The position numbers and the translations under genes are program-made. The notes beneath the pieces are model-generated. The model saw nothing but the letters and a program-made list of their open reading frames with translations, did not search any database and was not told where the DNA came from. From NCBI RefSeq assembly GCF_004365355.1, contig NZ_SODP01000004.1, positions 342,266-406,265 of the forward strand: 64,000 nt of DNA, read 5' to 3'. The stretch comes from Kribbella pratensis (GTDB lineage Bacteria > Actinomycetota > Actinomycetes > Propionibacteriales > Kribbellaceae). Below, one piece after another: positions 29,195 to 43,069 of this stretch (positions within the stretch are counted from its first letter, which is position 1; each line of letters starts with the position of its first letter).

Positions 29195-29226
29195 CGTTCG
29201 CGCCTTCCCATAGCTTGCTCCGCGCG

Positions 29227-29245
29227 GAATCGTGCATGATGCATG
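29227..29245. promoter_or_regulatory. Palindromic operator between the sugar-acid operon and its GntR gene
   Basis: ATCGTGCATGATGCATGAT is a near-perfect 19-bp palindrome (one mismatched pair; core TGCAT-g-ATGCA). It sits 33 bases upstream of the dehydratase start and 71 bases upstream of the GntR start. It is the natural binding site for the divergent FadR-type repressor, probably released by a sugar-acid intermediate. Confidence 0.7.
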
Positions 29246-29315
29246 ATTACCAGTGTTACCCTGCCGAAACCTGCCCGGTGGGGTCAAGGGCGCGACCAGA
29301 TTCCGGAGACAGCTG

Positions 29316-30014
29316 ATGGCGGAGGCGTTGGGGCCGATGGAGCCGGTATCGCCGGTGGACCGGCGAGTGCTGCGGCGGCAGATGCTCGCCGACGACGTGT
29401 ACGAAGCCATCAAGACGATGCTGATGGACCACGTCATTCGGCCCGGCGCCCGGATCTCGATCGACGGGCTGGCGCGCGAGTTCCAGGTGTCGTCGACGCC
29501 CGTCCGGGAGGCGCTGGCGCGGCTGGAGTCGGAAGGGCTGGCGGTCAAGGAGCCGCTCAAGGGCTACCGAGCGACGCCGCTGTTGACGCTCGAGGAGTTC
29601 GACGATCTGTACCGCTTCCGGCTGCTGCTCGAGCCGTGGGCCGCGCGGCGGGCCGCTGAGCTGATCTCTTCCTCGGGGCGCGAACTGTTGCGCGCCGAGT
29701 TGGCGAACGCGGTCGAGCCGACGTCGGTCGACTACGCCGGGTACAAGTCGCTCACCGCGCATGACAACCGGTTCCACTCGCTGATCGCGTCGCTGTCGGG
29801 GAGCGAGCAGGTCCGCCTGGCCTTCGAACGCACCCACTGCCACCTGCACATCTTCCGGCTCCACTACGACCGCGACATCGGGCCGGAGGTCCTGACCGAA
29901 CATCGCATGCTGGTCGAGGCGATCACATCCGGTGACCCGGCGGCTGCGGAGGCCGCGATGACCCAACACATCGAAAACTCGATGACGCTCCGCCTCCGAC
30001 GCATCTACGAATGA
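29316..30014 (+). CDS. GntR-family regulator, FadR/FCD subfamily
   Basis: 232 residues. The winged helix-turn-helix lies near residues 25-85 (ISIDGLAREFQVSSTPVREA), followed by an all-helical FCD ligand domain. Its metal-site residues are suggested by DLYRFRLLLEPWAARRAAE, HDNRFHSLIA and EHRMLVEAI. FCD regulators commonly respond to organic or sugar acids. Divergent placement and the palindrome between make it the likely repressor of the operon at 18764-29194. ATG 29316 has ggag about nine bases upstream; longer starts lack a binding site. Confidence 0.9.
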   Translation: MAEALGPMEPVSPVDRRVLRRQMLADDVYEAIKTMLMDHVIRPGARISIDGLAREFQVSSTPVREALARLESEGLAVKEPLKGYRATPLLTLEEFDDLYRFRLLLEPWAARRAAELISSSGRELLRAELANAVEPTSVDYAGYKSLTAHDNRFHSLIASLSGSEQVRLAFERTHCHLHIFRLHYDRDIGPEVLTEHRMLVEAITSGDPAAAEAAMTQHIENSMTLRLRRIYE

Positions 30015-30457
30015 CCCGGCGCCCGTTCCCACTGGTGGTGCCGCCGGAGCTTGCGGCGTACATCCTGGACTTCCACTGGGACCTCGAACTGCTGCACGCC
30101 CTCGACCTGCCGGTGGTTGAGTTGTCCGTCGCCGACTTGGCACATCACCTCGATCTGCCGTTCTGGGCGTACGGCGGACGTCCGTTTCGGGTGACGCCTC
30201 GGCAGGTGGGGGCGGATCCGGTGACGTATCGCGAGCAGTACGAACGCACACTGGCAGCTGATCTGCGTCATCCGCTGGACGTCGTACGACGCCGCGACGA
30301 GCGGATCACGATCCTTGACGGCGTGCACCGTTTGCTGCGGGCCGAGCTCGAGGGTCGGGCTGTTGTTGAAGTTCGCGTGCTGCCGTGGGAAGACCTCGAT
30401 CAGATCGCTGTGCGGGGGCGGTCTCCCACCCCCGCACGCGACACGTCTACTTCGTGA
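30011..30457 (+). CDS. ParB/sulfiredoxin-like domain protein
   Basis: 148 residues. ITILDGVHRLLRAELEG contains the DGxHRxxA element of the ParB/sulfiredoxin nucleotide-binding fold, and the rest is compatible with a small single-domain member. Partitioning proteins are much longer, so this is not a chromosome-segregation ParB. It overlaps the GntR stop by four bases and is probably translated with it. The C-terminus overlaps the convergent glycosidase gene by 11 bases. Confidence 0.65.
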   Translation: MTRRPFPLVVPPELAAYILDFHWDLELLHALDLPVVELSVADLAHHLDLPFWAYGGRPFRVTPRQVGADPVTYREQYERTLAADLRHPLDVVRRRDERITILDGVHRLLRAELEGRAVVEVRVLPWEDLDQIAVRGRSPTPARDTSTS

Positions 30458-32036
30458 TGACCAGCGCGTCGCCCACCGGACGTTCGCCGGCCGCATCCGA
30501 CGGCGTGTTCAACACCTTGCCATCGGCAACCATCGTCGTGGACCCGCCGCCGTCGAGGTTGATCGCTTCGGTCAGGTGGAACGACTTGGCAACGGCGGCC
30601 GCTTCGGAGATCGACAGGCCGAGGCTGTTGACGTTGCGACCGTCGGCGGTGATCAGCACCGTGCGGCCGTGGTCGTCCACGCCCGCGATCGTGCGCGGAT
30701 TCCGCTTGTGGACCCAGCCGTAGTAGAAGCTCGCCGTACCCTGCACCATCCCGTCCGCCGCCGCGGTCGCATGGATCTGCCCGTCGCGGACCAGCTCCGG
30801 TCCGCCGTTGACGATCGTCGTACGGCGGGACAACGGAACCGGTCGACCGCGCTCGTCGAACAAGGTCGAGCGGACCGTCAGAGGCTTGCCGACTCGAGCG
30901 GCGGCCAGCAGCGGCGCTACGAGGTTGCCGATCGCCTGCACGGTGCGCCCGCCCTCCGGGATCGCCCCGCCGCGAGTCGTCGTACGGATCGCAGTCACGA
31001 TCCCGCGCCGGTCGAGCACCACCTCGGCACCGGGTCCGCTGGGCGTGGCAACGCCGTACGACTCGTCGAACGCGATCAGTTCATCCGCGTCGGTGCAGGT
31101 CGTGTCGTGCATCGGCTTCGCGGTCGGCAGGTCATCCGCAGTACCGCCGCAGTTGCGGATCAGCCCGGGCACGCGGTTCAGGCCGTCGAGCGGGAGCGGC
31201 TTGCCGACGCCGCGGACCTCGCCACGCCAAGTGAACCGGTCGACGGATGTGCCGCGCGGGCCGAGCACGAGGGCCGGGCGGCCGTTGGTCGGCTCGCTGA
31301 CGAGGCGTCCGTCGTACACCCCGACGCCGGCCGGATCGCCGGGCGCTCCGGACTTCGGATCGAGGACGAAGAAGCCGGCGTTGATCGCGGCCGTCGCACC
31401 GGTCAGGGTCGCGAGCGTGCTGGTCGTCTCGCGCTGCTCGATGTCCGGACCGTACGTCGCATCGAGCGTGCCGCGGAACGTCTTCGGGTCGATCGTCAGG
31501 ACCTGGACGTGCCAGGGACCGGTCGAGCCGGCGATGTCGTCGGGCTCACCGTCCCAGCCCGTGTAGATGCTCGATCCGCTCAGCCCGGCCGCGGTCACCT
31601 TGGTACGCAAGGCGTCGGCGTCGGCCTTGTTCGCGAACAGTCCGAGGCGGACGCGGTACCCGAGGCTGCCACCGCCCGCGTCGGCGAGGCGCGGCGTCGG
31701 CACATCCTCGACGCGGGGCTCGAGGCCCGCGGCGCGGAGCTTGTCAGCGGCCTTGTTCGCGGCGGCCTGATCGGAGATCGCGGCCGCGGGCGCGTCCGGA
31801 TCGGGCGAGGAGGAGGGGATCGCGATCTCGACGGTCCAGCCGGCGTTGGTGTCGGTCTTGCCGCGGACGATCGTCGTCAGCGTGACGCCCGGCTGGAGCG
31901 TACGGGTGTCGCGGGTCTCGGTGAGGTTGTCCGGGCCGAGTGGCAGATGCTGCGTCGGCGGGGTGGCGACAGCGGTCGTGCCACCGAGGGTCAGGGAAAG
32001 GCAGAGGGCGGACAGGCCCAGACGTCGCAGGGTCAT
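30447..32036 (-). CDS. Secreted NAGPA-type phosphodiester glycosidase-domain protein with SPOR repeat
   Basis: 529 residues. A signal peptide (LGLSALCLSLTLGGTTAVA) is followed by a SPOR-like segment near residues 85-145 (YRVRLGLFANKADADALRTK). The C-terminal half is the phosphodiester N-acetylglucosaminidase-like domain, recognised by TAAINAGFFVLDP, VQAIGNLVAPLLAAARVG and NLDGGGSTTMVADG. The SPOR part suggests a cell-wall location where it would act on phosphodiester-linked sugars of exported glycans. It overlaps the convergent ParB-like gene by 11 bases. Confidence 0.85.
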   Translation of the reverse strand: MTLRRLGLSALCLSLTLGGTTAVATPPTQHLPLGPDNLTETRDTRTLQPGVTLTTIVRGKTDTNAGWTVEIAIPSSSPDPDAPAAAISDQAAANKAADKLRAAGLEPRVEDVPTPRLADAGGGSLGYRVRLGLFANKADADALRTKVTAAGLSGSSIYTGWDGEPDDIAGSTGPWHVQVLTIDPKTFRGTLDATYGPDIEQRETTSTLATLTGATAAINAGFFVLDPKSGAPGDPAGVGVYDGRLVSEPTNGRPALVLGPRGTSVDRFTWRGEVRGVGKPLPLDGLNRVPGLIRNCGGTADDLPTAKPMHDTTCTDADELIAFDESYGVATPSGPGAEVVLDRRGIVTAIRTTTRGGAIPEGGRTVQAIGNLVAPLLAAARVGKPLTVRSTLFDERGRPVPLSRRTTIVNGGPELVRDGQIHATAAADGMVQGTASFYYGWVHKRNPRTIAGVDDHGRTVLITADGRNVNSLGLSISEAAAVAKSFHLTEAINLDGGGSTTMVADGKVLNTPSDAAGERPVGDALVITK

Positions 32037-32106
32037 AGGACGTTCCTACGTTCCGCCCTCCCCTGTCGCAACCTGAGCGGAGCGTCGTGTTCTTGAACAA
32101 CAAACG

Positions 32107-32445
32107 TCACTCCAGCGGCGCACCGCCGTACGAGACCTCGTTGCCATCCGGGTCGAAGAACGTCGCATGCCGTACGCCGTTGTCGTACGTCTCCCGTACC
32201 GCGGGGACGAGGCCGCGGTCGGCGATCGCCCGCAGTACCGCGTCGAAGTCCTCGACGAACAGCGTGTGCTGCGCATGCCCCGCGTGCTCGGGCACCACTT
32301 CGATGTAGAGGAACTGGTGCTCGCCGAGCTCCCACACCGCCTCGATGTCATTGGGCAGAAAACTTGGCGGCCCACCCAGCAACTGCGTGTACCAGGCGAC
32401 CGCCGTGTCGTAGTCGCGCACGGATACTCCCGCAAACAGGTCCAT
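32107..32445 (-). CDS. VOC superfamily protein
   Basis: 112 residues of a single VOC module: FAGVSVRDYDTAVAWYTQLLG at the start, WELGEHQFLYIEVVPEHAGH in the middle, and FFDPDGNEVSYGGAPLE with the terminal Glu metal ligand. The enzymatic role is unknown. It is divergent from another VOC gene that starts 33 bases away, so their expression signals overlap. Confidence 0.85.
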   Translation of the reverse strand: MDLFAGVSVRDYDTAVAWYTQLLGGPPSFLPNDIEAVWELGEHQFLYIEVVPEHAGHAQHTLFVEDFDAVLRAIADRGLVPAVRETYDNGVRHATFFDPDGNEVSYGGAPLE

Positions 32446-32477
32446 ACCGAACCCTATCGACAGGTAGCCTCGGCCAG

Positions 32478-32858
32478 GTGCGTGTCGATCGGCTGGATCA
32501 CCTTGTTCTGACGGTTGCGGATGTGGATGTGACCGTCGACTTCTACCAGCGGGTGCTGGGGATGAAGCCGGTGAGCTTCAAGGGCGGCCGGCGGGCGCTC
32601 GCCTTCGGGAGCAGCAAGATCAACTTGCACCAGGCCGGGCACGAGTTCGAGCCCAAGGCCGAGCACCCCGGCCCTGGCACCGCCGACCTGTGCTTCATCG
32701 TCGACGAGCCGATCGACCGGATCCAAGCCGAGCTCATTGCACACGGCGTTGATATTGAGGAAGGTCCGGTCGAGCGCACTGGCGCGACCGGACCGATCCT
32801 CAGCGTGTACTTGCGCGACCCCGACCAAAACCTGATCGAGCTCAGCAACTACCTCTAG
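32478..32858 (+). CDS. VOC superfamily protein (glyoxalase/dioxygenase-like)
   Basis: 126 residues beginning at GTG 32478. LDHLVLTVADVDVTVDFYQ, then INLHQAGHEFEPKAEHPGPG with conserved His, then YLRDPDQNLIELSNYL carry the extradiol-dioxygenase/glyoxalase-like metal ligands. Relatives include virulence-protein-like VOC dioxygenases; the substrate is unknown. No strong ribosome binding site is visible. Confidence 0.82.
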   Translation: MRVDRLDHLVLTVADVDVTVDFYQRVLGMKPVSFKGGRRALAFGSSKINLHQAGHEFEPKAEHPGPGTADLCFIVDEPIDRIQAELIAHGVDIEEGPVERTGATGPILSVYLRDPDQNLIELSNYL

Positions 32859-33524
32859 TCGACTTCCGGGGTCGCCGTCCTCGTTGACTAGCACCGCGCG
32901 GATCCTGTACGCCCAACCGGAGACCTGGTTCAGTACGCGCCGCACAGGAAGGACCTGTCCTCCGGGCGGAGGCCCTGTCCACCCCGGTGACGATTTCAGG
33001 TCACACCGCGGCAACTCACCATGGTTGACCGGGATGGTCCCGTCCGCGCTCCCGTGCAGCAGCAGCGCCGACGCGGTGATTGTTCTCAGCTCACAACCCA
33101 GTCCTTCGTGTACGAGGCATCGTCGTCGATCGGCCCATACGGGCCTGCATTCAGCCTCGACGCGGCCACCTTCGTCAGCCACCCGCACGTCCCGCCGAAC
33201 ATCTTCACGTCAGTGTCGGGGAACCAGCGTCGTTAGTCGAAACCCGAGCTATGTAGGACTTCTCGCACGTTGGTTCCTGCAGCGGTGGTCCCAACGTAGC
33301 CACCGCCGACGGCACCCAGCTGGGCGTCGCGTCCCCGCCGGTGTCCTGCTCGTGCACGACCTGCCGTCCGACCACTCATATTCCGCTCGATCACGCCTGC
33401 CAACGCCTCAACGCCGGCACACCCTGACATAGGCGGCATCGGAGCAGCGACCCGCACCACGACACCTTGGTCCTTCGGACCGACTCATAGACATTTCGGC
33501 GACTGAGTGTAACGATCCATGCCT
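32859..33524. other. Decayed or non-coding stretch upstream of the defence-like cassette
   Basis: About 670 bases with no intact gene. Minus-strand remnants can be read: an alpha/beta-hydrolase-like piece (ASALLLHGSADGTIPVNHGE, about 33020-33090) and the broken frame described separately. The stretch separates ordinary chromosomal genes from the cassette that starts at about 33.5 kb. Confidence 0.45.
33086..33460 (-). pseudogene. Remnant gene with an in-frame stop
   Basis: A minus-strand frame reads GTNVREVLHSSGFD, then TAA at 33233-33235, then continues in the same frame as RRWFPDTDVKMFGGTCGWL, VAASRLNAGPYGP and SYTKDWVVS before a second stop. The text on both sides of the internal stop looks like protein, so this appears to be a gene broken by one nonsense change. 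I do not recognise the family. Confidence 0.35.
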
Positions 33525-33550
33525 ACTCTCCGATACGACCTACGGAGAGT
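33525..33550 (+). promoter_or_regulatory. Inverted repeat upstream of the four-gene cassette
   Basis: ACTCTCCG, ten bases, CGGAGAGT: perfect 8-bp arms about 210 bases before the ATPase start, just after a taacgat that could be a -10. It may be an operator or a 5'-leader hairpin of the cassette. Confidence 0.45.
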
Positions 33551-33757
33551 GACCGATGACGCTTCGAGCATCGTCGGTTTGAGCGCAGTTGCTCTTATCC
33601 ACAGCGGATGGAGCACTGATTTGCCACCTGGGGGACCAGTGGGGGGATGTATGGGGACGGGCAGTCTTTGGTTGCTCACGTTGAGGTCGGCCGGCCTGGC
33701 TCGCCAGCTGACGCGCCAGCAGGTCAGGAGCTGCCGGTCGAGGCGGGGGGTTCGATC

Positions 33758-35257
33758 GTGAGCGACTTCGACGTAGTTGAAACCATCACACTCAAACCCG
33801 ACGCGAGTTTGGTGAAGAGCCTCGGGGCGCATCACACCCTCGAGTCTGCGGTCGCCGACCTGGTCGACAACTGCCTCGATGCTGGGGCGACCAAGGTAGT
33901 CGTCCAGCTTCTTACCTCGGCCGACCAGCTCGTACAGGTCGAGGTCATCGACAACGGATGCGGGATGGACTCGAGCGCCGCCGACAAGGCGATGACACTC
34001 GGCCATCAGCGAGAGTACGCCGACCATGACCTCGGCCACTTCGGCATCGGGCTCAAGGCCGCTTCCTTCGGCCACGCGGACACCCTGACTGTCTGGTCGT
34101 CCCGGCGCGACATGGTTTCCGTCGGCCGTCGCATTCGACGAGCCGACTTCTCGAAGGACTTTTCCTGCGAGGTTCTTTCCGAACACGCGGCAGCTACGGC
34201 CGCCGCCCATCGGAAGCGAGTGACTGGCACCAGCAGCGGCACATCTGTGGTGTGGACTGACCTGCGCGGTACCTACCGCGGCACGAACGCCGACGAGGCG
34301 CGGACGTGGATGTCGAACGCCGAGCGAAGCCTTCGGTCACACCTCGGCGTAACCTTCCATCGCCTGATCGCCAAGGAGATCCTCGACATCGAGATCATCG
34401 TTGACGATATCGAGTACGCCGATGAGGCAATCGGCACTCCGGTCAGGGCGATCGACCCCTTCGGGTACCCCGCCTCGGGCCGTCCGGGATATCCGAAGAA
34501 CATCGTGGCGGAGTCTGGTGATCAGCAGGTCATCCTTCAGTGCCACATCTGGCCGCCGAAGGTGGACATTCCGGGCTTCCGGATCAGCGGCAAGACCGGT
34601 GGAAGCTTCCAGGGGTTTTATATCTACAGACGCGATCGACTTTTGCAAGTAGGCGGCTGGTCGGAAGTCGCCAACTCTTCGGCGCATCGCCAGCTCGCTC
34701 GCGTCGTTCTCGATGACGAGACGGCGATCGGCTCTCTGCTGACTATGAACCCCGAGAAGGCCGGCCTGCGCTTCGAACCGATCTTCAGGGACGCCCTCGC
34801 CCACGCGGAGGCGGCGGACGGAACCACCTTCGACTCCTATCTGAAGGATGCCGAAGCCGCTTACGTCGAGGGAAATCGGCGGATCAGCAGGCGTCAGCCC
34901 GTCATTGCGCCCGAGAAAGGGTTCGGTCCGAAGCTGCGCAAGTCGATCGGCGCGGAGTTGCCGCTGCTGCACTCCGACGCGCTCAACATACAGTGGAAAC
35001 GACTGTCGGAGGACGAGTTCATCGACGTTGACTTCGGCAACAGCACGCTCTGGCTCAACTCCCGTTACCGCTACCTGTTCGCTCCGGAACGTGGGAGCCT
35101 GAACGATGCGCCGGTACTCAAGGCGCTCCTCTTCCTGCTTACCCATACAGTCTTCGAAGGCGCCCATCTCGGGCCGAAGGACAAGGACAACATCGCGCTC
35201 TGGAGCGCGATCCTCAGCGCCGCAGTCGAGGCTGAGGAGGCGATGCGCGGTGATTGA
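33758..35257 (+). CDS. GHKL ATPase, MORC/Hsp90-like (cassette gene 1)
   Basis: 499 residues. The GHKL ATP-binding site is complete: N-box SAVADLVDNCLDAGA near residues 31-45, DNGCGMD near 65-71 and GHFGIGLKAAS near 93-103. A C-terminal region (about 200-499) is of the prokaryotic MORC-like type found beside nucleases and Z1 proteins. Such ATPases probably clamp DNA and couple ATP to nuclease action. GTG 33758 follows ggcgggggg; an in-frame ATG at 33647 would add 37 residues. Its end overlaps the next gene by eight bases. Confidence 0.85.
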   Translation: MSDFDVVETITLKPDASLVKSLGAHHTLESAVADLVDNCLDAGATKVVVQLLTSADQLVQVEVIDNGCGMDSSAADKAMTLGHQREYADHDLGHFGIGLKAASFGHADTLTVWSSRRDMVSVGRRIRRADFSKDFSCEVLSEHAAATAAAHRKRVTGTSSGTSVVWTDLRGTYRGTNADEARTWMSNAERSLRSHLGVTFHRLIAKEILDIEIIVDDIEYADEAIGTPVRAIDPFGYPASGRPGYPKNIVAESGDQQVILQCHIWPPKVDIPGFRISGKTGGSFQGFYIYRRDRLLQVGGWSEVANSSAHRQLARVVLDDETAIGSLLTMNPEKAGLRFEPIFRDALAHAEAADGTTFDSYLKDAEAAYVEGNRRISRRQPVIAPEKGFGPKLRKSIGAELPLLHSDALNIQWKRLSEDEFIDVDFGNSTLWLNSRYRYLFAPERGSLNDAPVLKALLFLLTHTVFEGAHLGPKDKDNIALWSAILSAAVEAEEAMRGD

Positions 35258-36263
35258 CCACCCCGGCGTCGACGCCACCGAACGATCCCAGGATGCGCGT
35301 CATCTAACCGTCGAGAACCTCGACCTCGTCTGGTCGGGCCGGCACCCGGTGGTTCTCCCACTCTCGGGAGAACCGGAATGCCGGCTCGACGTGCACCCGC
35401 CCAACGGAACGATCACGCTGATCACCGCCTTCACACCGCCGGAACCCGACGTCGCCAAGTGGCGCAATATCACCTTCCAGCGAGTGATGTCCGACGAGCA
35501 GGAGCTCGCGGAGCTGAGAGTCGTGATCGCAGACAACCTGCACGGTGCGTACGGTCTGCTGACGAGTGTGGCCGACCAGTTGCAACTGCACCACGAGCCG
35601 CTCGCTTCCGCGGTGGCGATCTCGATCAAGAAGCACCGCGATCTGTTCGCGGGTCAGGCCGGTCTCACCACGGAGAAGGAATTGGGGCTCTTCGGCGAGC
35701 TGTTGGTGCTTGAGTATCTGATCGAGATGATCGGCGCCCGTCGCGCGATTGAGTCCTGGCAGGGTCCACGGTCGGAAGAGCACGACTTCGTCCTGCCGGG
35801 GATCCATCTTGAGGTCAAGACGACGTCAGGCGAGCACCGCAAGCACATGATGCACGGGTTCACACAGCTTGAGTCAGTACGGGGAATCCCGCTCAGCCTC
35901 GTCTCCATTCAGCTGACGCGGGCTAGCCATGACGGCGGTTTTAGTCTCGGTCAGATGGTTTCTCGCGTCCGGGCGAAAGCTGGCGGCTACCGCCCACCCG
36001 TCGACGCGAGCCTTGAGGCCGTGGGATGGGATGACGGCCACGCTGACCTGTACACCACGTTCTGGACTCGGCGGAACACGCCGCGCGCTTTCGACGTCGA
36101 CCAACGGTTCCCGGCCCTGACCTCGGCCCGCCTTGAGGCCGCGATCCCCAACTTCAAGGCGGTCGCCAATCTCGCCTACAGCGTCGACCTGACGCATTTC
36201 ACGTCCGACGTGCTGCCAGAGCCGCTGTTGGGTTTCGTCACCACTGATACGGAGCACTCATGA
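35250..36263 (+). CDS. PD-(D/E)XK nuclease-like protein, DUF4420 type (cassette gene 2)
   Basis: 337 residues. The active-site signature reads HDFVLPGIHLEVKTTSG, with Asp 179, Glu 188 and Lys 190 in the D-x(8)-E-x-K spacing of PD-(D/E)XK nucleases. FGELLVLEYLIEMIGARRAI forms the preceding helix with the expected Glu. It is the probable DNA-cutting subunit of the cassette. The GTG 35250 start lies inside the ATPase gene with GAGGAGG nine bases upstream, and its stop overlaps the Z1 gene as ATGA. Confidence 0.82.
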   Translation: MIDHPGVDATERSQDARHLTVENLDLVWSGRHPVVLPLSGEPECRLDVHPPNGTITLITAFTPPEPDVAKWRNITFQRVMSDEQELAELRVVIADNLHGAYGLLTSVADQLQLHHEPLASAVAISIKKHRDLFAGQAGLTTEKELGLFGELLVLEYLIEMIGARRAIESWQGPRSEEHDFVLPGIHLEVKTTSGEHRKHMMHGFTQLESVRGIPLSLVSIQLTRASHDGGFSLGQMVSRVRAKAGGYRPPVDASLEAVGWDDGHADLYTTFWTRRNTPRAFDVDQRFPALTSARLEAAIPNFKAVANLAYSVDLTHFTSDVLPEPLLGFVTTDTEHS

Positions 36264-39244
36264 CCATGCCAGAGGACTGGACGGTGCCGGCGTGGGCGAT
36301 GCCGTTGCGAAACCTGCTGCAAGGCTTTGCCGAGCAGGCGCCTCGACCGCTGCTTCCGGCGCTTGCCATGTTCGGCGGCGAGGTTTCCGAGGCCGAGCTG
36401 GTCGACTTCATCCAAAGCGCGCCGGTCAACGACAACGCATTCATCGCGCTCCGGCTAGCCTTCGCCAAGTGGGACGGCAGCGACGACATCGTGCTACACG
36501 ATCCACAAGGCGCCGAGACGGCGTCCGGAACGATCGCACGGCGACTTGCGGTAGTGGCAGCTCTCGGGCTGTCCGCCGACACCGAGGCGACGATCCGGGC
36601 GGTCATCCCCGTGCATCAGGAAACCACGATCGTCATCAGCCGAGAGTTCGAACCGTGGTACGAGGATGCGCGATCGCAGCGCAGCTCGCTCTATTGGGAC
36701 GATTACGAGAAGTACCTCGCCGAGGTCAAGAAGTGGCCCACGTCATCGATCACGACGCTCGACCGGAGCACCAACTCGGTGATCGAGCGGCTGAGTGACC
36801 CGACTCGCAGCGAGATCAAGCAGACCAAAGGCTTAGTTGTCGGCTACGTGCAGAGCGGAAAGACAGCGAACTTCACCGGCGTCATCGCAAAGGCCGTCGA
36901 CGCCGGCTACCGGCTGGTTGTCGTCATGACCGGCACAATCGAGATCCTCCGCTCCCAGACCCAACGTCGCATCGACATGGAGCTGATGGGCGTCGAAAAT
37001 GTCCTCGCCGGCCAGGATCCGTCAGACCCGGACGTAGCGAAGGGACTCGATTACCAGCAGGACGAAGACTGGTTGGCCAACAGGTTCGTCGAGCACAGTG
37101 AGCGTGCGCTCAACCAGCCCGGCGTGGCCCGCATTCGCCGCGTGACCACGCATCACAACGACTATAAGAGCCTGCCCCAGGGGATGTCGCAGCTTCGCTA
37201 CGAGCGGCACGACAAGACCAGACCCCTGAACGCGCCAGAGAACCTCCTCCACACCGACGCGTACGTAGTCATCGTGAAGAAGAACTCGGCACCGCTGAAG
37301 AAGCTGATCAGGGACCTGCAGCCCTTACAAGCCATGCTCAGCGAGCTTCCCGCTCTGATCATCGACGACGAGTCAGACCTCGCCTCGGTCAACACCAAGG
37401 ACCCGGCCAAGTCAAGCGACCGGACCACCATCAATCAGCTCATCACCAAGTTGATGGATATCGTCCCCCGAGCGCAGTACGTCGGGTACACGGCAACACC
37501 GTTCGCAAACGTGTTCATCGACCCCGACGATGAACGCAACCTGTTCCCGTCGGACTTCGTGCTCTCACTCCCGCGGCCCGCGGACTACATGGGGGTTCAG
37601 GAATTTCACGACGTGGACCCCGATTGGGAGAACGTGGAGAAGACCGTCGCGACCTCCAACGAGCTGGCGTACGCACGTGCTATCCAAGGGGATCCGCTCC
37701 GGGACTCTGAGCTCCGCAAGGAGGAGCTGCGCGAAGCTCTCGACTCCTGGGTGCTCAGCGGTGCCATCAAGAAGTACCGCGAGTCGGTGACCGGACGGAC
37801 GTACCGCCACCACACGATGCTCGTTCACGAGGAACTGACGAACAAGACACAGTCCGAGTCTGCTGTTGTCGTTCGTGCTCTGTGGAACACAGGGAGATTC
37901 ACCTCTGGAGAGGGCCTCAGGCGGCTGCGGAAACTCTTCGACAACGACCTTCTGCCGGTCATGAAAGCGCGCGCCAACGGTGAGCCGGTACCGGCCGACT
38001 TCGACGACGTGAAGCCGTTCGTAGCCAGAGCTCTGGCGGAGATGGACAGCGGCGGCTCGGATCCCGTGCTCGTTGTCAACTCCGACAAGGCGGTCCAAGA
38101 ACAGCAAGAGGCGCTCGACTTCGACGCTGGACGCGTCTGGCGAATCCTTATCGGCGGCGCGAAGCTCAGCCGGGGATTCACGGTCGAGGGACTCACAGTT
38201 TCGTTCTTCCGTCGCAAGGCCGGGCAGGCAGACACGCTCATGCAGGCCGGCCGATGGTTCGGTTTCCGCGAGGGCTACCGCGACCTCGTCCGGCTGTACA
38301 TCCGGCGCGACAAGGTCGTCGACCTCTACGAAGCATTCGAGGCTCTACTGCTCGACGAGGAGGCTTTCCGAGACGAGCTGGCGAAATACGAGGGATTCGA
38401 CGAGGACGGAAGACCGATCGTCGAACCGCGACAGATTCCACCGCTGGTTAGCCAGCATTTGCCGTGGCTAAAGCCGACCGCGCGAAACAAGATGTTCAAC
38501 GCCGTCGTGAAGTCACGGGCCTCAGTGGGGGCGTTCCACCAGCTGTCGTCAATCCCACCGCGGGGAGCCGACGAGAATGAGCAGAACCTAAGGGAGGTCA
38601 TCCTTCCGTTGCTGAAAAGGGCGACCAACGACGCGACCTTGCAGTATGAAGACGACGACAAGAAGATCAAGGACCAGGAAACGAAGGTCGGGCTCATCGA
38701 TGCAGCCGAGTTCCTCGCGTACTTCGACAAGCTGAAGTGGCACGAAGATTACGCGACTGTCATCGATCCCCTGAAGTCCTTCATCACCACTGCGACGGAG
38801 AAGCAGCGCATCAAAGATTGGGCAATCGTCTGGCCGCAGCGCAGAGGTCCCGGACGCGCGCTTGTCTTCGAAGAGTTGCAACAGCCAGCACCGATCTGGA
38901 AGCGCAAGCGCCGCGAGTCCCCCCGCATCGATTTTACCGGGGAGAACAAGCGCAACCTTCGAGCAGCGGAGGCTGTGCCGGCGGGACGGGAAACGCCCGT
39001 CCTAGGGGCTAGTCCCACCCGTGGAGTACTAGTCATCTCATTGGTCGCGGACCAAGCCGAGACGAGTGAGAGCGAGCCGGTCACCCCCAACAAGGTTGTC
39101 GGAATGATCTCTTTGCGGGTTCCCGACAGATCTGTTCGGAGCAAGCGCGACCATATCCAATACTCGGTCATCGTCGCGGACGCAGACGACGCAGCCATCG
39201 ACAAGTCGCTCCGACCGGACCATGAAGGTGGCCACGATGCATGA
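36260..39244 (+). CDS. Z1-domain ATPase/helicase-like protein (cassette gene 3)
   Basis: 994 residues. Walker A is GYVQSGKTANFTG near 194-206, Walker B LIIDDESDLAS near 366-376, then YVGYTATPFANVFIDP near 408 and the Z1 region GGAKLSRGFTVEGL near 630 with QAGRWFGFREGY near 662. Z1 proteins are superfamily-II-like translocases found with nucleases and MORC-like ATPases. It probably moves on or remodels DNA for the neighbouring nuclease. It starts within an ATGA overlap. Confidence 0.9.
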   Translation: MTMPEDWTVPAWAMPLRNLLQGFAEQAPRPLLPALAMFGGEVSEAELVDFIQSAPVNDNAFIALRLAFAKWDGSDDIVLHDPQGAETASGTIARRLAVVAALGLSADTEATIRAVIPVHQETTIVISREFEPWYEDARSQRSSLYWDDYEKYLAEVKKWPTSSITTLDRSTNSVIERLSDPTRSEIKQTKGLVVGYVQSGKTANFTGVIAKAVDAGYRLVVVMTGTIEILRSQTQRRIDMELMGVENVLAGQDPSDPDVAKGLDYQQDEDWLANRFVEHSERALNQPGVARIRRVTTHHNDYKSLPQGMSQLRYERHDKTRPLNAPENLLHTDAYVVIVKKNSAPLKKLIRDLQPLQAMLSELPALIIDDESDLASVNTKDPAKSSDRTTINQLITKLMDIVPRAQYVGYTATPFANVFIDPDDERNLFPSDFVLSLPRPADYMGVQEFHDVDPDWENVEKTVATSNELAYARAIQGDPLRDSELRKEELREALDSWVLSGAIKKYRESVTGRTYRHHTMLVHEELTNKTQSESAVVVRALWNTGRFTSGEGLRRLRKLFDNDLLPVMKARANGEPVPADFDDVKPFVARALAEMDSGGSDPVLVVNSDKAVQEQQEALDFDAGRVWRILIGGAKLSRGFTVEGLTVSFFRRKAGQADTLMQAGRWFGFREGYRDLVRLYIRRDKVVDLYEAFEALLLDEEAFRDELAKYEGFDEDGRPIVEPRQIPPLVSQHLPWLKPTARNKMFNAVVKSRASVGAFHQLSSIPPRGADENEQNLREVILPLLKRATNDATLQYEDDDKKIKDQETKVGLIDAAEFLAYFDKLKWHEDYATVIDPLKSFITTATEKQRIKDWAIVWPQRRGPGRALVFEELQQPAPIWKRKRRESPRIDFTGENKRNLRAAEAVPAGRETPVLGASPTRGVLVISLVADQAETSESEPVTPNKVVGMISLRVPDRSVRSKRDHIQYSVIVADADDAAIDKSLRPDHEGGHDA

Positions 39245-41357
39245 TGTCGACTTTGTCGACACGCACCCTCGAGTCTGGTCGGACGCCTTTCCCTGGCTGC
39301 GCGGCAGCCTGTCCGGCGACGACGAGCTTCGGTCGTGGCGCGACATGGCGATGGACGATGCAGCGGGGATGGATCGCCGACGAGTCTTGAGCTCTGTTGT
39401 GTCTCTCGCGATCAATCACTTGGAGAAGTGGCCTATCGGCGAGGTCTTCCCCGGAATGCCTCTGGAGATGCCGATCGATGACCTCGACCTGACCGTCCGG
39501 GCGTACAACGTCCTCCACCGCGAACGAAAGCTGACGACCAGCGACTTGGCAGACGTGCGCATTGAAGATCTCCTCGCCTGCCGCAATGCCGGGATCGGAA
39601 CTGTACGGGACATCCTCCGGAACCTGGCTGACCGATCGACTTCTTTGCCGCAGGCGTCGTTGGCTGATGACACCACCATGTTCGTGGAACCCGCATCGTC
39701 TGCTGCTTTGCTCGGTGGCCTCATCAACGACATCGAGGCCCTCGCCGAGTGGAACCTGCTGCTGGGGCAAGAGGACCGCGGACTCTTGGCACCGCTGGCG
39801 CTCGGAGCGCCAATGGAGATTGCCGCAGCTCGCGAGCGGATACTCGCATTGTCGGCGACCGCAGTCGCGCCGCCGTCGAGTGCCGACGTTGCCGAGGTGC
39901 TCGAGCAGGCGATTCTTGGCATGGACGAACGGTTCCGCGTCATCTTGGCCCGGCGCCTGTTCGCGTGGAAGCCCATGCGCCTGGAGCAGCTCGGGCAGGA
40001 GTTCGGTGTGACTCGGGAGCGAGTTCGCCAGCTGGAATCCAAGGCCCGGTCGAAGTTGTACGAGGTAGTCGCGGAGGGCACCCCGGCGGGGCAGGTGGCG
40101 GCCGTCGTCCGCAGTGAGGTCCGCGGCGTGCGGCCGTTACAAGAGCTGCTGACCGAGATCCCTGCGCTCGCGCGCACCGTCGAGAGCGTCGGCCAGCCGG
40201 CGTGGCGGGTCATCGACATTCTCGACGACTCCTACGAGATTGCCGATGGCTGGTGTGCAGAACCGAGCCTTGACGCCGCCAAGCGTGAGACGGCGATTTA
40301 CCTCGACGAGCTAGCCGACGAATTCGGCGTGGTCAGACTCGCCGACGTTGGCCTCGTCGGCTCCGGTGAGCCTGGCACTCTGCCTTGGCTTACCGAATGG
40401 CTACAACACCTCGGATGCGACGTGCGCGATGGCTTCGTACTGCTGCGCACGAGCTCAGTAGGTGATGTCGCGGCAGCCGCGCTGTCCATCGAGGGCGGAC
40501 CGCTGACCCTCGAGGTGCTCTTCGAGCGGGCCAACCGAGGATCGATCGGTAGCCTCCGTAACCAGCTCAACACTGATCCTCGTTTTCACAAGGTCGATGT
40601 CGAGCACTGGGCCTTGACCGCGTGGGGTATGGACGGCTACAGCAACATTCGGACGGAGATCGCCAAGCTCCTTGAGCAGGCGGGCGGAGAGCTGCCGCTG
40701 GCGACCATTGTTGAGTCGCTCGTCGAACGCTTCGGCGTTTCCCCGGCATCCGTCAACGTCTACGCGGGGAGCGCGCCATACGAAGTCCGCAATGGAATCG
40801 TGCGCTCTGAAGCGATCCGTACTGCCGGCGGAAAGAACCCGGCCAAGGTTCAGGGCTACTACCGCCGCGGCCAAGACTGGCTGCATCGAACGACTGTCAC
40901 ACGTGATCACCTGCGGGGAAGTGGGTGGGGAGCCTCGACCGCGATCGCGACCATCGTCGGACTGTCGCCTGGCGAGACGGCCGAGCTGCCGACTCGACTC
41001 GGACCTCAGAAGTTCTCGTGGAAGAACCACCAGCCGGCGTACGGCAGCATCAAACGGTTCCTCGAGGCGGACGACCTCGGCATTGGCGACGAGGTCTTCC
41101 TCGTCTTCCGCGGTGACGGGACCTTCGATGTGGAGAAGCTGGCCGAGCCCACCGAGGAGCCGCGACGGCAAGCACTCCGGCTGGTTGGCGCCGACATGAA
41201 CCTTGCGGGCCAAGAGGCGGTCGACGCGCTCGCCGCAGCGATCAAGTATCCCGCCGGAGACGATGTCGAGACCGTCGCAGCTGGTTATGCCGCCAGACGA
41301 GAGCAGCCGATCGCGGAGTTGCTGGGGCAATGCCAATCTGACTTCGGCGCGTCCTAG
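39237..41357 (+). CDS. Protein with sigma-region-4-like HTH and alpha-CTD-like segment (cassette gene 4)
   Basis: 706 residues. A segment near 97-128 (LTTSDLADVRIEDLLACRNAG) resembles the helix-hairpin-helix end of the RNA polymerase alpha C-terminal domain. A segment near 248-275 (LEQLGQEFGVTRERVRQLES) is a clear sigma-70 region-4 helix-turn-helix. The remaining 420 residues are unfamiliar, with repeated winged-helix-like stretches and a C-terminal part near 555-660. It lacks region 2, so it is not a complete sigma factor. It probably gives the cassette DNA binding or transcription sensing. ATG 39237 has AAGGTGG about six bases upstream; ATG 39222 is possible. Confidence 0.75.
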   Translation: MHDVDFVDTHPRVWSDAFPWLRGSLSGDDELRSWRDMAMDDAAGMDRRRVLSSVVSLAINHLEKWPIGEVFPGMPLEMPIDDLDLTVRAYNVLHRERKLTTSDLADVRIEDLLACRNAGIGTVRDILRNLADRSTSLPQASLADDTTMFVEPASSAALLGGLINDIEALAEWNLLLGQEDRGLLAPLALGAPMEIAAARERILALSATAVAPPSSADVAEVLEQAILGMDERFRVILARRLFAWKPMRLEQLGQEFGVTRERVRQLESKARSKLYEVVAEGTPAGQVAAVVRSEVRGVRPLQELLTEIPALARTVESVGQPAWRVIDILDDSYEIADGWCAEPSLDAAKRETAIYLDELADEFGVVRLADVGLVGSGEPGTLPWLTEWLQHLGCDVRDGFVLLRTSSVGDVAAAALSIEGGPLTLEVLFERANRGSIGSLRNQLNTDPRFHKVDVEHWALTAWGMDGYSNIRTEIAKLLEQAGGELPLATIVESLVERFGVSPASVNVYAGSAPYEVRNGIVRSEAIRTAGGKNPAKVQGYYRRGQDWLHRTTVTRDHLRGSGWGASTAIATIVGLSPGETAELPTRLGPQKFSWKNHQPAYGSIKRFLEADDLGIGDEVFLVFRGDGTFDVEKLAEPTEEPRRQALRLVGADMNLAGQEAVDALAAAIKYPAGDDVETVAAGYAARREQPIAELLGQCQSDFGAS

Positions 41358-41389
41358 AGATAGGGCGCTGACCCGGGGAGAGTGGAGTG

Positions 41390-41411
41390 CTCGCGGAGCA
41401 GCCGCCGCGAG
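41390..41411. terminator. Hairpin between convergent genes
   Basis: CTCGCGG-agcagccg-CCGCGAG, a perfect 7-bp stem 33 bases after the cassette's last stop and 49 bases before the end of the convergent oxidoreductase gene. There is no T-run. Confidence 0.45.
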
Positions 41412-41459
41412 GAGCGGCGTGACGATCGTAGCGGCGGTCGCCCCGCGAACGAAGGTCGG

Positions 41460-42656
41460 CTACACAGGCGCGTCGCCGTGGTCGGGGATTTCCAGTTGTA
41501 CGCCGCCCTGGAGCGCGGACTGGTGGGCGATGATGCCGGGGAGGGTGTAGCGGGCGGAGATCCAGGCGTTGATCGGCGGGAGGGTCTTGTCGGCTACCGC
41601 GCGGACGAAGTCGTCCGCGAGGAAGTGGTGGGAGCCCTCGTGGCCGTTGTGCAGGCCGGCGAACTCCTTCGGCAGGCGGCTGCGGTCGTGCACCGGCGAG
41701 AGGCCGGAGCGGAACGCGTCGCGCAGCGCGGGGTCGACGTTCGCCAGGTCGGCGTCGTCGAGTGAGCTGCTCGGCTTGGTCTCCATCAGGTGGGAGACAT
41801 CCTCGACGCCTTCCTTGTTCTGCCACAGTGTCGTGGTGGCGAGCTGCTCGAAGCTGCCCTCGGTGCCGAACACGCGCAGCCGCGACTCGCGGATGTGCGA
41901 CGGGTACCCGACGCGGCGCATCTCGTTCGTCCGCATGATGCCGCCGTCGGCGAGCTTGAAGAGCGCGGTCGCGTTCGAGAAGTCGTTGTTGAACTGGCTG
42001 ACGTCCTTGTCGAAGACGCCGTCGCCGCGGTCGTCCTCGACCCCGATCGCCGACACGTGCGTGGCGTGCTGACCGGTCACCGAGAGAACGTTGCCGACGG
42101 CATGCGTCGGGTAGAGCAGCGGCGGGAACGACGCGGTCTTCTTCCAGTCGTCGCCGCCGGAGTACTGGTACGCCGCGTAGAAGCCGAGGTCCATGTCGTG
42201 GACGTAGTCACCCTCGGAGTAGAACACCCGGCCGAACGCACCCTCGGCGAGCTTCTGCCGGCAGTACACCGACGACGGGTAGTAGAAGCTGGTCTCGCCC
42301 ATCATGTACGTCAGGCCGGTCTCCTTGACCAGCTCGATGATGCGCGCGATCTGGTCCGCCTCGATCGCCATCGGGACCGTCGAGTACACGTGCTTGCCGG
42401 CCTCGAGCGCCTTGATCGCCATCTCCCCGTGCAGCCACCGCTGCGTGAAGATCGCGACCGCGTCCAGGTCCGACTCGAGCATCTCCTCGAACGACGCGTG
42501 CGTGACTGCGATGCCCTGCTTGGCGGCCATCTCCGCGGTCCGCTCCGGGATCACGTCGGTCAGCCGCACCTCGGACACATCCGGGTGCGCGGACCACAGC
42601 CGCAGGAACGAAGGAGCAAACTGTCCGGCGCCAACCACGCCGATGCTGATTCCCAT
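41460..42656 (-). CDS. Gfo/Idh/MocA-family oxidoreductase
   Basis: 398 residues. The Rossmann fingerprint ISIGVVGAGQFAPSFLRLW is at the N-terminus, followed by LDAVAIFTQRWLHGEMAIKALEAGKHVY and a C-terminal substrate domain. The usual EKP motif reads STVPMA, so the nucleotide/substrate Lys is replaced, which may change catalysis. Relatives oxidise sugars, inositols or their derivatives. ATG 42656 begins MGISIGVV. A perfect inverted repeat lies 25 bases upstream. Confidence 0.85.
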   Translation of the reverse strand: MGISIGVVGAGQFAPSFLRLWSAHPDVSEVRLTDVIPERTAEMAAKQGIAVTHASFEEMLESDLDAVAIFTQRWLHGEMAIKALEAGKHVYSTVPMAIEADQIARIIELVKETGLTYMMGETSFYYPSSVYCRQKLAEGAFGRVFYSEGDYVHDMDLGFYAAYQYSGGDDWKKTASFPPLLYPTHAVGNVLSVTGQHATHVSAIGVEDDRGDGVFDKDVSQFNNDFSNATALFKLADGGIMRTNEMRRVGYPSHIRESRLRVFGTEGSFEQLATTTLWQNKEGVEDVSHLMETKPSSSLDDADLANVDPALRDAFRSGLSPVHDRSRLPKEFAGLHNGHEGSHHFLADDFVRAVADKTLPPINAWISARYTLPGIIAHQSALQGGVQLEIPDHGDAPV

Positions 42657-42680
42657 GCACGCTAGGCAATCACACATTTA

Positions 42681-42697
42681 TGTTCTACGGAAGAACA
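42681..42697. promoter_or_regulatory. Operator-like inverted repeat
   Basis: TGTTCT-acgga-AGAACA, perfect 6-bp arms in an AT-rich island 25 bases upstream of the oxidoreductase start. No regulator gene is adjacent. Confidence 0.55.
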
Positions 42698-42704
42698 AAT
42701 TCAC

Positions 42705-42922
42705 ACGTTGGAACATGTGCCCCCAGCCGACCGCCGCCTCCGGCGGCACGAGGAGCCACGTTGGAACCTGTGCCCCAAACCCACGCCACCTCCGGCGGCG
42801 GCACGAGGAGCCGCGCTGGAACCTGCGCCCCAAACCCACGCCACCTCCCGCGGCGGCACGAGGAGCCGCGTTGGAGCGTGTGGGAGTCCGAGTCCACCGC
42901 CTCCAGCGGCGGGCTGGACGGG
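42705..42922. repeat. 55-bp tandem repeat, about 3.5-4 copies
   Basis: Units start at 42705, 42758, 42813 and 42868 (53, 55, 55 and a degenerate last copy). Each begins acgttgg/gcgttgg-like and ends with ggcacgaggagcc. The units touch with no spacers, so this is not CRISPR. No gene is visible in 42657-43069. Confidence 0.85.
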
Positions 42923-43069
42923 CGGTGGTGGACCGCCTGGTCTCCTGCGGACCGATTGGACTTTGGGCGCCCACCAACCATTTTCGTCGCGGCGAAACGG
43001 TTGATGGGTGCTCAAAGTGCCGTCCGGACGCGCGGGGTGGGCCGGTGTGGGCGGTGTGGGGGTGGGCGG

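Follow-up and report, generated by a model that had tools for sequence, protein, structure and literature searches.

A four-gene MORC ATPase, DUF4420 nuclease, Z1 helicase and sigma-like protein cassette without a linked C5 or HmaB-type methylase in Kribbella pratensis

How would a restriction-like cassette spare the DNA of its own host when it carries no methylase of the kinds that accompany its relatives? The question is raised by four overlapping genes of Kribbella pratensis that encode a MORC-type ATPase, a DUF4420 nuclease, a Z1 helicase and a sigma-like protein, here called SIG. They lie in a 64,000-nt stretch of contig NZ_SODP01000004.1 (positions 342,266 to 406,265; hereafter, the window, whose own numbering is used below), part of an 8.37-Mb genome; the genus comparison covers 38 genomes. 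The explanation that we favour, with a confidence that is evenly balanced, is that the cassette would be, judging from its sequence, an antivirus system that arrived by horizontal transfer and works by DNA restriction, each of its proteins having its own role: SIG would bind DNA and decide where or when to act, the Z1 protein would serve as an ATP-driven motor, the DUF4420 protein would cut, and the MORC ATPase would clamp or remodel DNA and couple recognition to cutting.

The four genes and the missing methylase

Four co-directional open genes occupy positions 33758-41357 of the window, in the order MORC, nuclease, Z1 and SIG:

33758 (GTG)-35257, plus strand: MORC-type GHKL ATPase, 499 aa (HATPase_c_3, E = 8e-22; GHKL motif residues)
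35250 (GTG)-36263, plus strand: DUF4420 PD-(D/E)XK nuclease, 337 aa (DUF4420, E = 2.7e-38)
36260-39244, plus strand: Z1 superfamily-II helicase/ATPase, 994 aa (Z1, E = 1.7e-48)
39222-41357, plus strand: SIG, 711 aa, with an RNA polymerase alpha C-terminal domain (alpha-CTD), sigma region 4, a predicted winged helix and a predicted B3-like domain

Neighbouring genes overlap by 8 nt (MORC/nuclease), 4 nt (nuclease/Z1) and 23 nt (Z1/SIG), and the Pfam matches of all four proteins exceed the gathering scores (the run for MORC and the nuclease used longer open reading frames (ORFs), from 33647 and 35106). An earlier note on this DNA had read four overlapping genes as one unit, which the coordinates, overlaps and Pfam families all confirm; its left edge at 33525 lies upstream of the gene start and did not hold, as relatives align from 33758, in agreement with their start context. 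The note had proposed looking for the four-gene order in other genomes, and this order is found in Nocardioides sp. ChNu-153 (L024/L086), where SIG and Z1 are 58% and 74% identical to those of the window.

Motifs were aligned from the fetched loci (21 MORC, 25 nuclease and 30 Z1 sequences), with MORC and nuclease residues numbered from the starts at 33758 and 35250 (for the nuclease, ORF numbering minus 48). MORC keeps D34, D37, N38, D65, G69 and the signature stretch GFYIYRRDRLL, whose G, both Y, R, R and L positions are conserved in 19-21 of the 21 sequences. Nuclease residues E150, D179 and E188-x-K190 are invariant (25/25) and, assigned by position, form a candidate active site. The Z1 protein has a Walker A motif (G195-T202), DDE at 369-371 and DTLMQAGRWFG; the listed positions are conserved in 27-30 of 30 sequences, those of DTLMQAGRWFG in 27-29. 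A sequence search against solved structures gave no match for Z1 or the nuclease. Compared with the ChNu-153 orthologues, all four genes show identities of 0.68-0.80, 0.76-0.84 and 0.39-0.51 at codon positions 1, 2 and 3, respectively; since the first two positions are much better conserved than the third, selection appears to act on the protein, and the four genes look functional.

We then ran profiles for eight gene families over the loci of a Z1 set of 30 sequences, consisting of the window, eight other hits in the genus, hits in the order (E<1e-60) and the class (E<1e-50), L065 and L067 (Z1 genes found beside SIG) and one plasmid, taken from 37 plasmid records that have a Z1 match. The Z1 branch containing the window comprises 22 loci, 14 of which have a complete, consecutive MORC-nuclease-Z1 trio. 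A methylase, either C5 or HmaB (a DNA-adenine methylase by its PADLOC name), lies near 13 of these 14 trios, and the window alone has neither. The neighbour is a C5 methylase in L018, L069, L072, L076, L077, L078 (in pieces) and L084, and HmaB in L024/L086, L119, L121, L118 and L120 (the last two in pieces); L073/L087 has both. Among the other eight loci of the branch, C5 methylases are near in L016, L017, L070 (between two Z1 sets) and L075 and 12 kb away in L074; the L080 locus is cut by a contig end. That such trios usually carry a methylase, as the earlier note had supposed, is thus borne out.

The absence of a cytosine methylase from the cassette, likewise claimed in the note, stands for the C5 kind and extends to the HmaB kind: neither was found in the window by tblastn (E<=0.01) or by an ORF profile search, other adenine methylase families lying outside both searches. 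On these results we reject a C5 or HmaB-type methylase concealed in the window, the leader of the cassette included. As the searches covered C5 and HmaB, the absence holds for the two kinds that accompany the relatives, not for all methylases. The sole C5 methylase gene found in the window's genome lies on another contig (G000:C3:40837-42534) and has relatives (E<=1e-30) in 18 other congeners of the 38, ten of them at 68-77% identity. None of these 18 has the four-gene cassette, and in four of them (G003, G015, G020 and G033) Z1 occurs in other loci. As the genome's C5 gene does not track the cassette, we reject a C5 methylase that is dedicated to it and acts in trans, and a methylase gene elsewhere that constantly co-occurs, which the note had named as a finding that would count against it, is not supported for the C5 kind. 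The genome gave no match for DUF499/HmaC (a control genome gave one), for HmaB in a search without a positive control, or for DndC.

Several loci of this branch hold other large proteins. A 700-aa protein with an N-terminal helix-turn-helix (HTH) follows the nuclease-Z1 pair and precedes tandem C5 methylases in L017 (12084-14177) and L016 (5138-7291); copies of it in L016, L072 and L076 give a weak AIPR-profile signal (24-33 bits). In L074 (5314-8373), a 1019-aa protein with a MORC-type ATPase domain in its C-terminal half directly precedes Z1; no DUF4420 gene was found in this locus, and an NB-ARC/TPR protein lies downstream.

SIG domains and neighbourhoods

SIG joins two recognisable domains of the transcription machinery to two predicted ones:

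39462-39629, plus strand: alpha-CTD-like domain, residues 81-136 (PF03118, E = 4e-11; aligned to solved alpha-CTDs)
39912-40061, plus strand: sigma region 4, residues 231-280 (PF04545, E = 3.6e-10)
40608-40823, plus strand: predicted winged helix, residues ~463-534 (model; winged-helix rows at Z ~5.6-6.6)
40869-41147, plus strand: predicted B3-like DNA-binding domain, residues ~550-642 (Foldseek and VIA-align of the model)

The first two bear out the earlier note's call of a sigma-4/alpha-CTD protein as the fourth gene. R93, N96 and G124 align with R, N and G of the B. subtilis-type alpha-CTD, positions that match R265, N268 and G296 in the E. coli domain, which contact DNA, and all three are invariant in the 10 members of the window's SIG branch. 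The sigma-4 recognition helix, R265-E-R-x-R-Q, is kept in 15 of 16 SIG family members. Region 4 is the only sigma-factor region recognisable by sequence, and a sequence search of solved structures with SIG returned only the alpha-CTD and sigma-4 stretches among the matches listed (60 of 83). Residues 409-711, modelled alone from three sequences, reached a mean predicted local distance difference test score (pLDDT) of 74.6. The 22 best Foldseek matches to the ~550-642 domain are B3-type, none better than E 0.016, and so are rows 1-17 of the best 50 in VIA-align (Z 6.6-8.0, 88-95 aligned residues, root-mean-square deviation 2.5-3.2), although the tool cautions that a Z under 8 may mean just a common arrangement. 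These 17 rows include the N-terminal domain of the restriction enzyme LlaJI.R1, and the recognition domain of BfiI stands in row 48 (Z 5.7). The ARF, VRN1, FUS3, LEC2, At1g16640 and LlaJI.R1 structures carry B3-type domains, although B3 is not named in several of the titles. Going by the model, the C-terminal half of SIG probably contains a B3-like fold.

The SIG family was defined as 16 proteins: the window's, those of 10 genomes of the order (E<1e-20), a second copy in G213 (3.8e-17), one from Leifsonia and three of 16 plasmid hits. The order-wide search gave matches in 388 of 391 genomes, the weak ones listed spanning the alpha-CTD or sigma-4 only, as ordinary polymerase genes do. The MORC-nuclease-Z1 trio stands beside SIG in two of the 16 loci, PbeA/PbeC in five (L059, L060, L061, L062 and plasmid L082), an MZA-like set with AIPR in two, a divergent ZacABC in one (L066) and a divergent C5 methylase in one (L025). 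The Pbe calls rest on PADLOC for L059 and for PbeC of L061, on 66-79% identity to L059 for L060, L061, L062 and PbeA of L082, and on bit score for PbeC of L082. DndC lies 8-9 kb away in all four chromosomal Pbe-SIG loci. Outside ChNu-153, the closest kin of the window's SIG (39-41% identity) are first genes of Pbe operons. Among the listings and passages returned by searches of open-licence papers, none describes SIG sharing among several defence systems. Judging by sequence and neighbours, a single candidate part for recognition or sensing, SIG, appears to be common to several different defence systems and to link them.

Two further features of these neighbourhoods deserve mention. In actinobacterial Pbe operons SIG is an extra first gene, which overlaps PbeA by 4 nt in 4/4 chromosomal loci; the excerpts of PMC6459918 and PMC10853773 that describe PbeABCD name no SIG-like protein. 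A DUF4011 helicase of the PDC-S37/Hhe kind adjoins SIG in two of the 16 loci, L057 (1825-10552) and the Microbacterium plasmid L083, and in the latter it reads as several ORFs.

Origin of the cassette

Alignment to a congener places the cassette within a larger insertion:

32859-41464, no strand: whole insertion (island), ~8.6 kb, comprising the four genes and a 0.9-kb leader (alignment to congener G034, L124)
32859-33757, no strand: leader without a recognised gene, ~0.9 kb, part of the insertion

Window 28002-32858 and 41465-42749 both align to the congener locus, where a single base separates them. The inserted piece is absent from the same site in all eight congener loci L122-L129 (no match >150 bases), which were chosen among the congener loci with the most similar right-hand flank gene, and its GC content is 63.1%, versus 67.8% for the rest of the window. 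Among the 38 genomes, no other has a Z1 relative of >47% identity, and full-length SIG relatives occur in two others (G002 and G018), both in a Pbe locus. At the ends of the insertion we found neither a duplicated target site nor a terminal repeat of >=10 nt common to both, and no tRNA gene, and a recognisable mobile-element mechanism is rejected on these grounds. A viral origin is rejected as well, viral contigs having no SIG or Z1 relative by six exact peptide patterns each, which detect close relatives only. No sigma-70-type promoter was matched in 32859-33900, a repeat scan of the leader gave nothing telling, and the leader contains no convincing methylase or Hma remnant (best tblastn E 0.029, an 18-residue piece). 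The decayed DNA that the earlier note saw next to the cassette is real as a stretch of some 0.9 kb without a recognisable gene, but this stretch belongs to the insert.

In congener G012, a gene for a 1005-aa NACHT protein (L122:4994-8011, minus strand) occupies the cassette's chromosomal spot. The site has thus accepted more than one defence-like insert, and it may be a small defence hotspot. On both strands, the ORF translations of intergenic DNA at window positions 42690-43010 contain short units that recur.

The partner of the window in the Z1 tree is ChNu-153 (Shimodaira-Hasegawa-like approximate likelihood ratio 100), and this pair is joined by G161 and G609 (100). ChNu-153 and G161 have Hma genes upstream, with HmaC overlapping MORC, and G609 has a 174-aa HmaB-like piece beside MORC plus a C5 methylase. 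These four tips weakly suggest that the ancestor of this small branch had two linked Hma genes, which disappeared on the lineage to the window, and that SIG was gained before the ChNu-153 split. Reliance of the core on Hma methylation would make such a loss harmful, yet the window's core is intact. HmaB-HmaC stands directly before MORC-nuclease-Z1, overlapping it or a few bases away, in six loci (L086:9774-17433, L087, L118, L119, L120 and L121), and the combination is a recurrent composite of two system kinds.

Explanations and known systems

Several lines of evidence led us to favour the restriction-type explanation. The trio fits by motif the MORC, helicase and nuclease operon of Iyer 2008 and has kinship with the MZA families; ChNu-153 retains SIG alongside the trio with the gene order unchanged; SIG overlaps Z1 here as it overlaps PbeA in Pbe loci; the predicted B3 fold resembles domains of LlaJI.R1 and BfiI; all four genes are under codon-position constraint; and a NACHT protein takes the same site in a congener. 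From these we infer a defence role, one four-protein machine, SIG as its recognition part and the means by which self is spared; SIG would be an interchangeable DNA-recognition or sensing subunit that steers the MORC-Z1-nuclease core. With neither a C5 nor an HmaB-type methylase linked to the cassette, the host would be protected by the target choice of SIG or by activation upon infection only. The earlier note's conclusion that self and non-self must be judged in another way holds only if the core can cut host DNA.

A number of observations weigh against this explanation. The C5 methylase of L078 and the HmaB of L118 and L120 read as pieces, so not every neighbouring methylase need be active. 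Nor is this cassette alone in lacking a C5 methylase once incomplete relatives are counted: none lies within 500 kb of L071, where MORC and Z1 occur but DUF4420 does not, and the genome of L079, a divergent Z1 that stands by itself, has none at all. Modelled at full length, SIG gives a poor structure (mean pLDDT 53), and the B3 call comes from a model of three sequences with Foldseek E>=0.016 and Z<=8.0. Recognition surfaces serving different systems should vary, whereas RGSG 565-568 and G608 of the B3-like part are invariant in 16/16 SIG proteins. SIG has no clear defence neighbour in three of 16 loci (L063, L064 and L085), and the SIG tree joins the window pair to the Pbe-linked SIGs at a support of 85/91, below the starred level. 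Finally, 12 of the 14 complete trios have no SIG nearby, and SIG is divergent from its neighbours in L066 and L025, which fits a regulator.

The last two points favour the view that SIG does no more than regulate transcription of the cassette, with the MORC-nuclease-Z1 trio as the whole effector, an alternative that we consider possible but rather unlikely. SIG keeps the key residues of the alpha-CTD and of sigma region 4, both of them folds that bind promoters. On the other hand, SIG has 711 aa, a large share of them in its C-terminal half, its gene comes last here yet first, and overlapping, in Pbe operons, and the sigma-like MzaA is counted as a component of MZA. A bolder and more doubtful reading is that SIG founds a family of swappable defence subunits, in which RNA polymerase-like alpha-CTD and sigma-4 parts are joined to winged-helix/B3-like parts and serve at least five effector sets (MORC-Z1, Pbe, MZA-like with AIPR, DUF4011 helicase and Zac). 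Such subunits would allow these sets to distinguish invaders from self through promoter-like DNA or phage attack on a polymerase copy, hence no methylase would be needed here.

Two alternatives would make SIG a sensor of another kind. In the first, which seems improbable, the system is modification-dependent and type IV-like, with SIG reading modified phage bases and unmodified host DNA spared. This agrees with the lack of a linked C5 or HmaB-type methylase and with the B3-like match to a restriction enzyme domain, that of LlaJI.R1, but the trio's relatives carry methylases (13/14), and the nearest SIG relatives sit with DndC, a sign of host DNA modification and thus of the opposite logic. In the second, marginally more improbable still, SIG imitates host RNA polymerase as a decoy: phage factors that attack sigma 4 or the alpha-CTD would hit SIG and release the nuclease machinery, and self-recognition at the DNA level would be unneeded. 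In T4, AsiA binds sigma region 4 and the alpha-CTD is ADP-ribosylated, and SIG joins these two polymerase surfaces that T4 takes over (PMC2988021; this and the articles cited below are used from excerpts). The key residues are invariant in the window's SIG branch, and SIGs recur beside different effectors; the R93/N96 residues, however, are not kept in 6/16 SIGs, a branch with the MZA-like, Zac and one DUF4011 locus, and the L085 SIG also lacks the sigma-4 helix. Because the decoy and modified-DNA readings likewise make SIG the sensing part, our estimates overlap and do not sum to one.

A restriction system protected by a methylase in trans is very unlikely: a C5 gene is present on another contig and the searches of adenine methylases were confined to HmaB, but the relatives of that C5 gene occur in 18 congeners without the cassette, and the genome has no DUF499/HmaC, HmaB or DndC match. 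Slightly less credible still is a decaying, functionless remnant, for which the missing upstream Hma genes of the nearest relative and the leader without a recognised gene would speak, and against which stand four open frames, conserved catalytic residues and change concentrated at third codon positions. If defence by the restriction-type system works without any methylase, the cassette would offer a natural experiment in which the MORC-Z1-nuclease core is uncoupled from DNA methylation, and the core's way of sparing host DNA would be testable with four genes.

Among known systems, PglW of type 2 BREX (bacteriophage exclusion) also has an alpha-CTD-like domain followed by winged HTH modules (PMC12839542) and gives a weak PADLOC match to SIG residues 82-280 (E 0.0046); in contrast, SIG gave no match to a kinase or NERD nuclease domain and the cassette no further BREX match. 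The phosphorothioation defence system DndCDEA-PbeABCD shares SIG relatives as first genes of its Pbe operons, whereas the cassette has no Pbe genes and DndC is unmatched in its genome. The ChNu-153 locus differs in its upstream HmaB and HmaC, both absent from the window. For the mechanism, the nearest model from biochemistry is CglI/NgoAVII, whose Z1 protein hydrolyses ATP only when complexed with a nuclease bearing a B3-like DNA-binding domain (PMC4267653). Both combine a Z1 motor with a nuclease, and the B3-like domain may have a counterpart in SIG, where such a fold is predicted (Z<=8.0); in CglI/NgoAVII, however, a PLD nuclease is fused to B3 and a C5 methylase is present, the excerpt names no MORC protein in that three-gene system, and the four cassette proteins have no Pfam match to PLD.

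The MORC type-3 operons of Iyer, Abhiman and Aravind 2008 (PMC2292703) come closer by motif. The GHKL motifs and the GhXhhpXXRhl signature are present in MORC, the DThhQXuRhFG helicase motif corresponds to DTLMQAGRWFG of Z1, and the RE-fold E-D-ExK corresponds by position to the DUF4420 nuclease residues. DNA methylases are frequent in those operons, whereas the cassette has none of the C5 or HmaB type and SIG is added; the excerpt names no sigma-like partner, and some MORC operons contain VP1/RAV (B3-type) proteins.

The validated mzaABCDE system (PMC9523054, citing Gao 2020), in which mzaA is a sigma factor, belongs to a wider family with Z1, a PD-(D/E)XK protein and a C5 methylase (PMC9523054). 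Like the cassette, it has a GHKL ATPase, Z1, PD-(D/E)XK and a sigma-70-like protein, and its five components include no methylase by their NCBIfam/PADLOC names. The cassette's matches to MzaB, MzaC and MzaD score 107, 259 and 66 bits against cut-offs of 850, 1500 and 420 (E-values of 8e-31 for MORC to MzaB and 6.7e-77 for Z1 to MzaC, both below the cut-off score). SIG matches MzaA at 37 bits against a cut-off of 800, and the match is confined to sigma region 4, which in SIG belongs to the N-terminal half but in MzaA forms the end (624-701 of 726). MzaE (AIPR) is missing among the window ORFs, while the same profile finds AIPR in the MZA-like loci. Plain MZA membership is rejected on the NCBIfam cut-offs and the missing AIPR. 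The earlier note was right that the cassette has no cytosine methylase, but the sigma-like arrangement is less peculiar than it had held: MZA, its precedent, joins these families to a sigma-like protein without a methylase, and the absence here is therefore not new in kind. The cassette, compared at the level of sequence, is not MZA but is MZA-like in its possible role and fits the MORC type-3 operons by motif.

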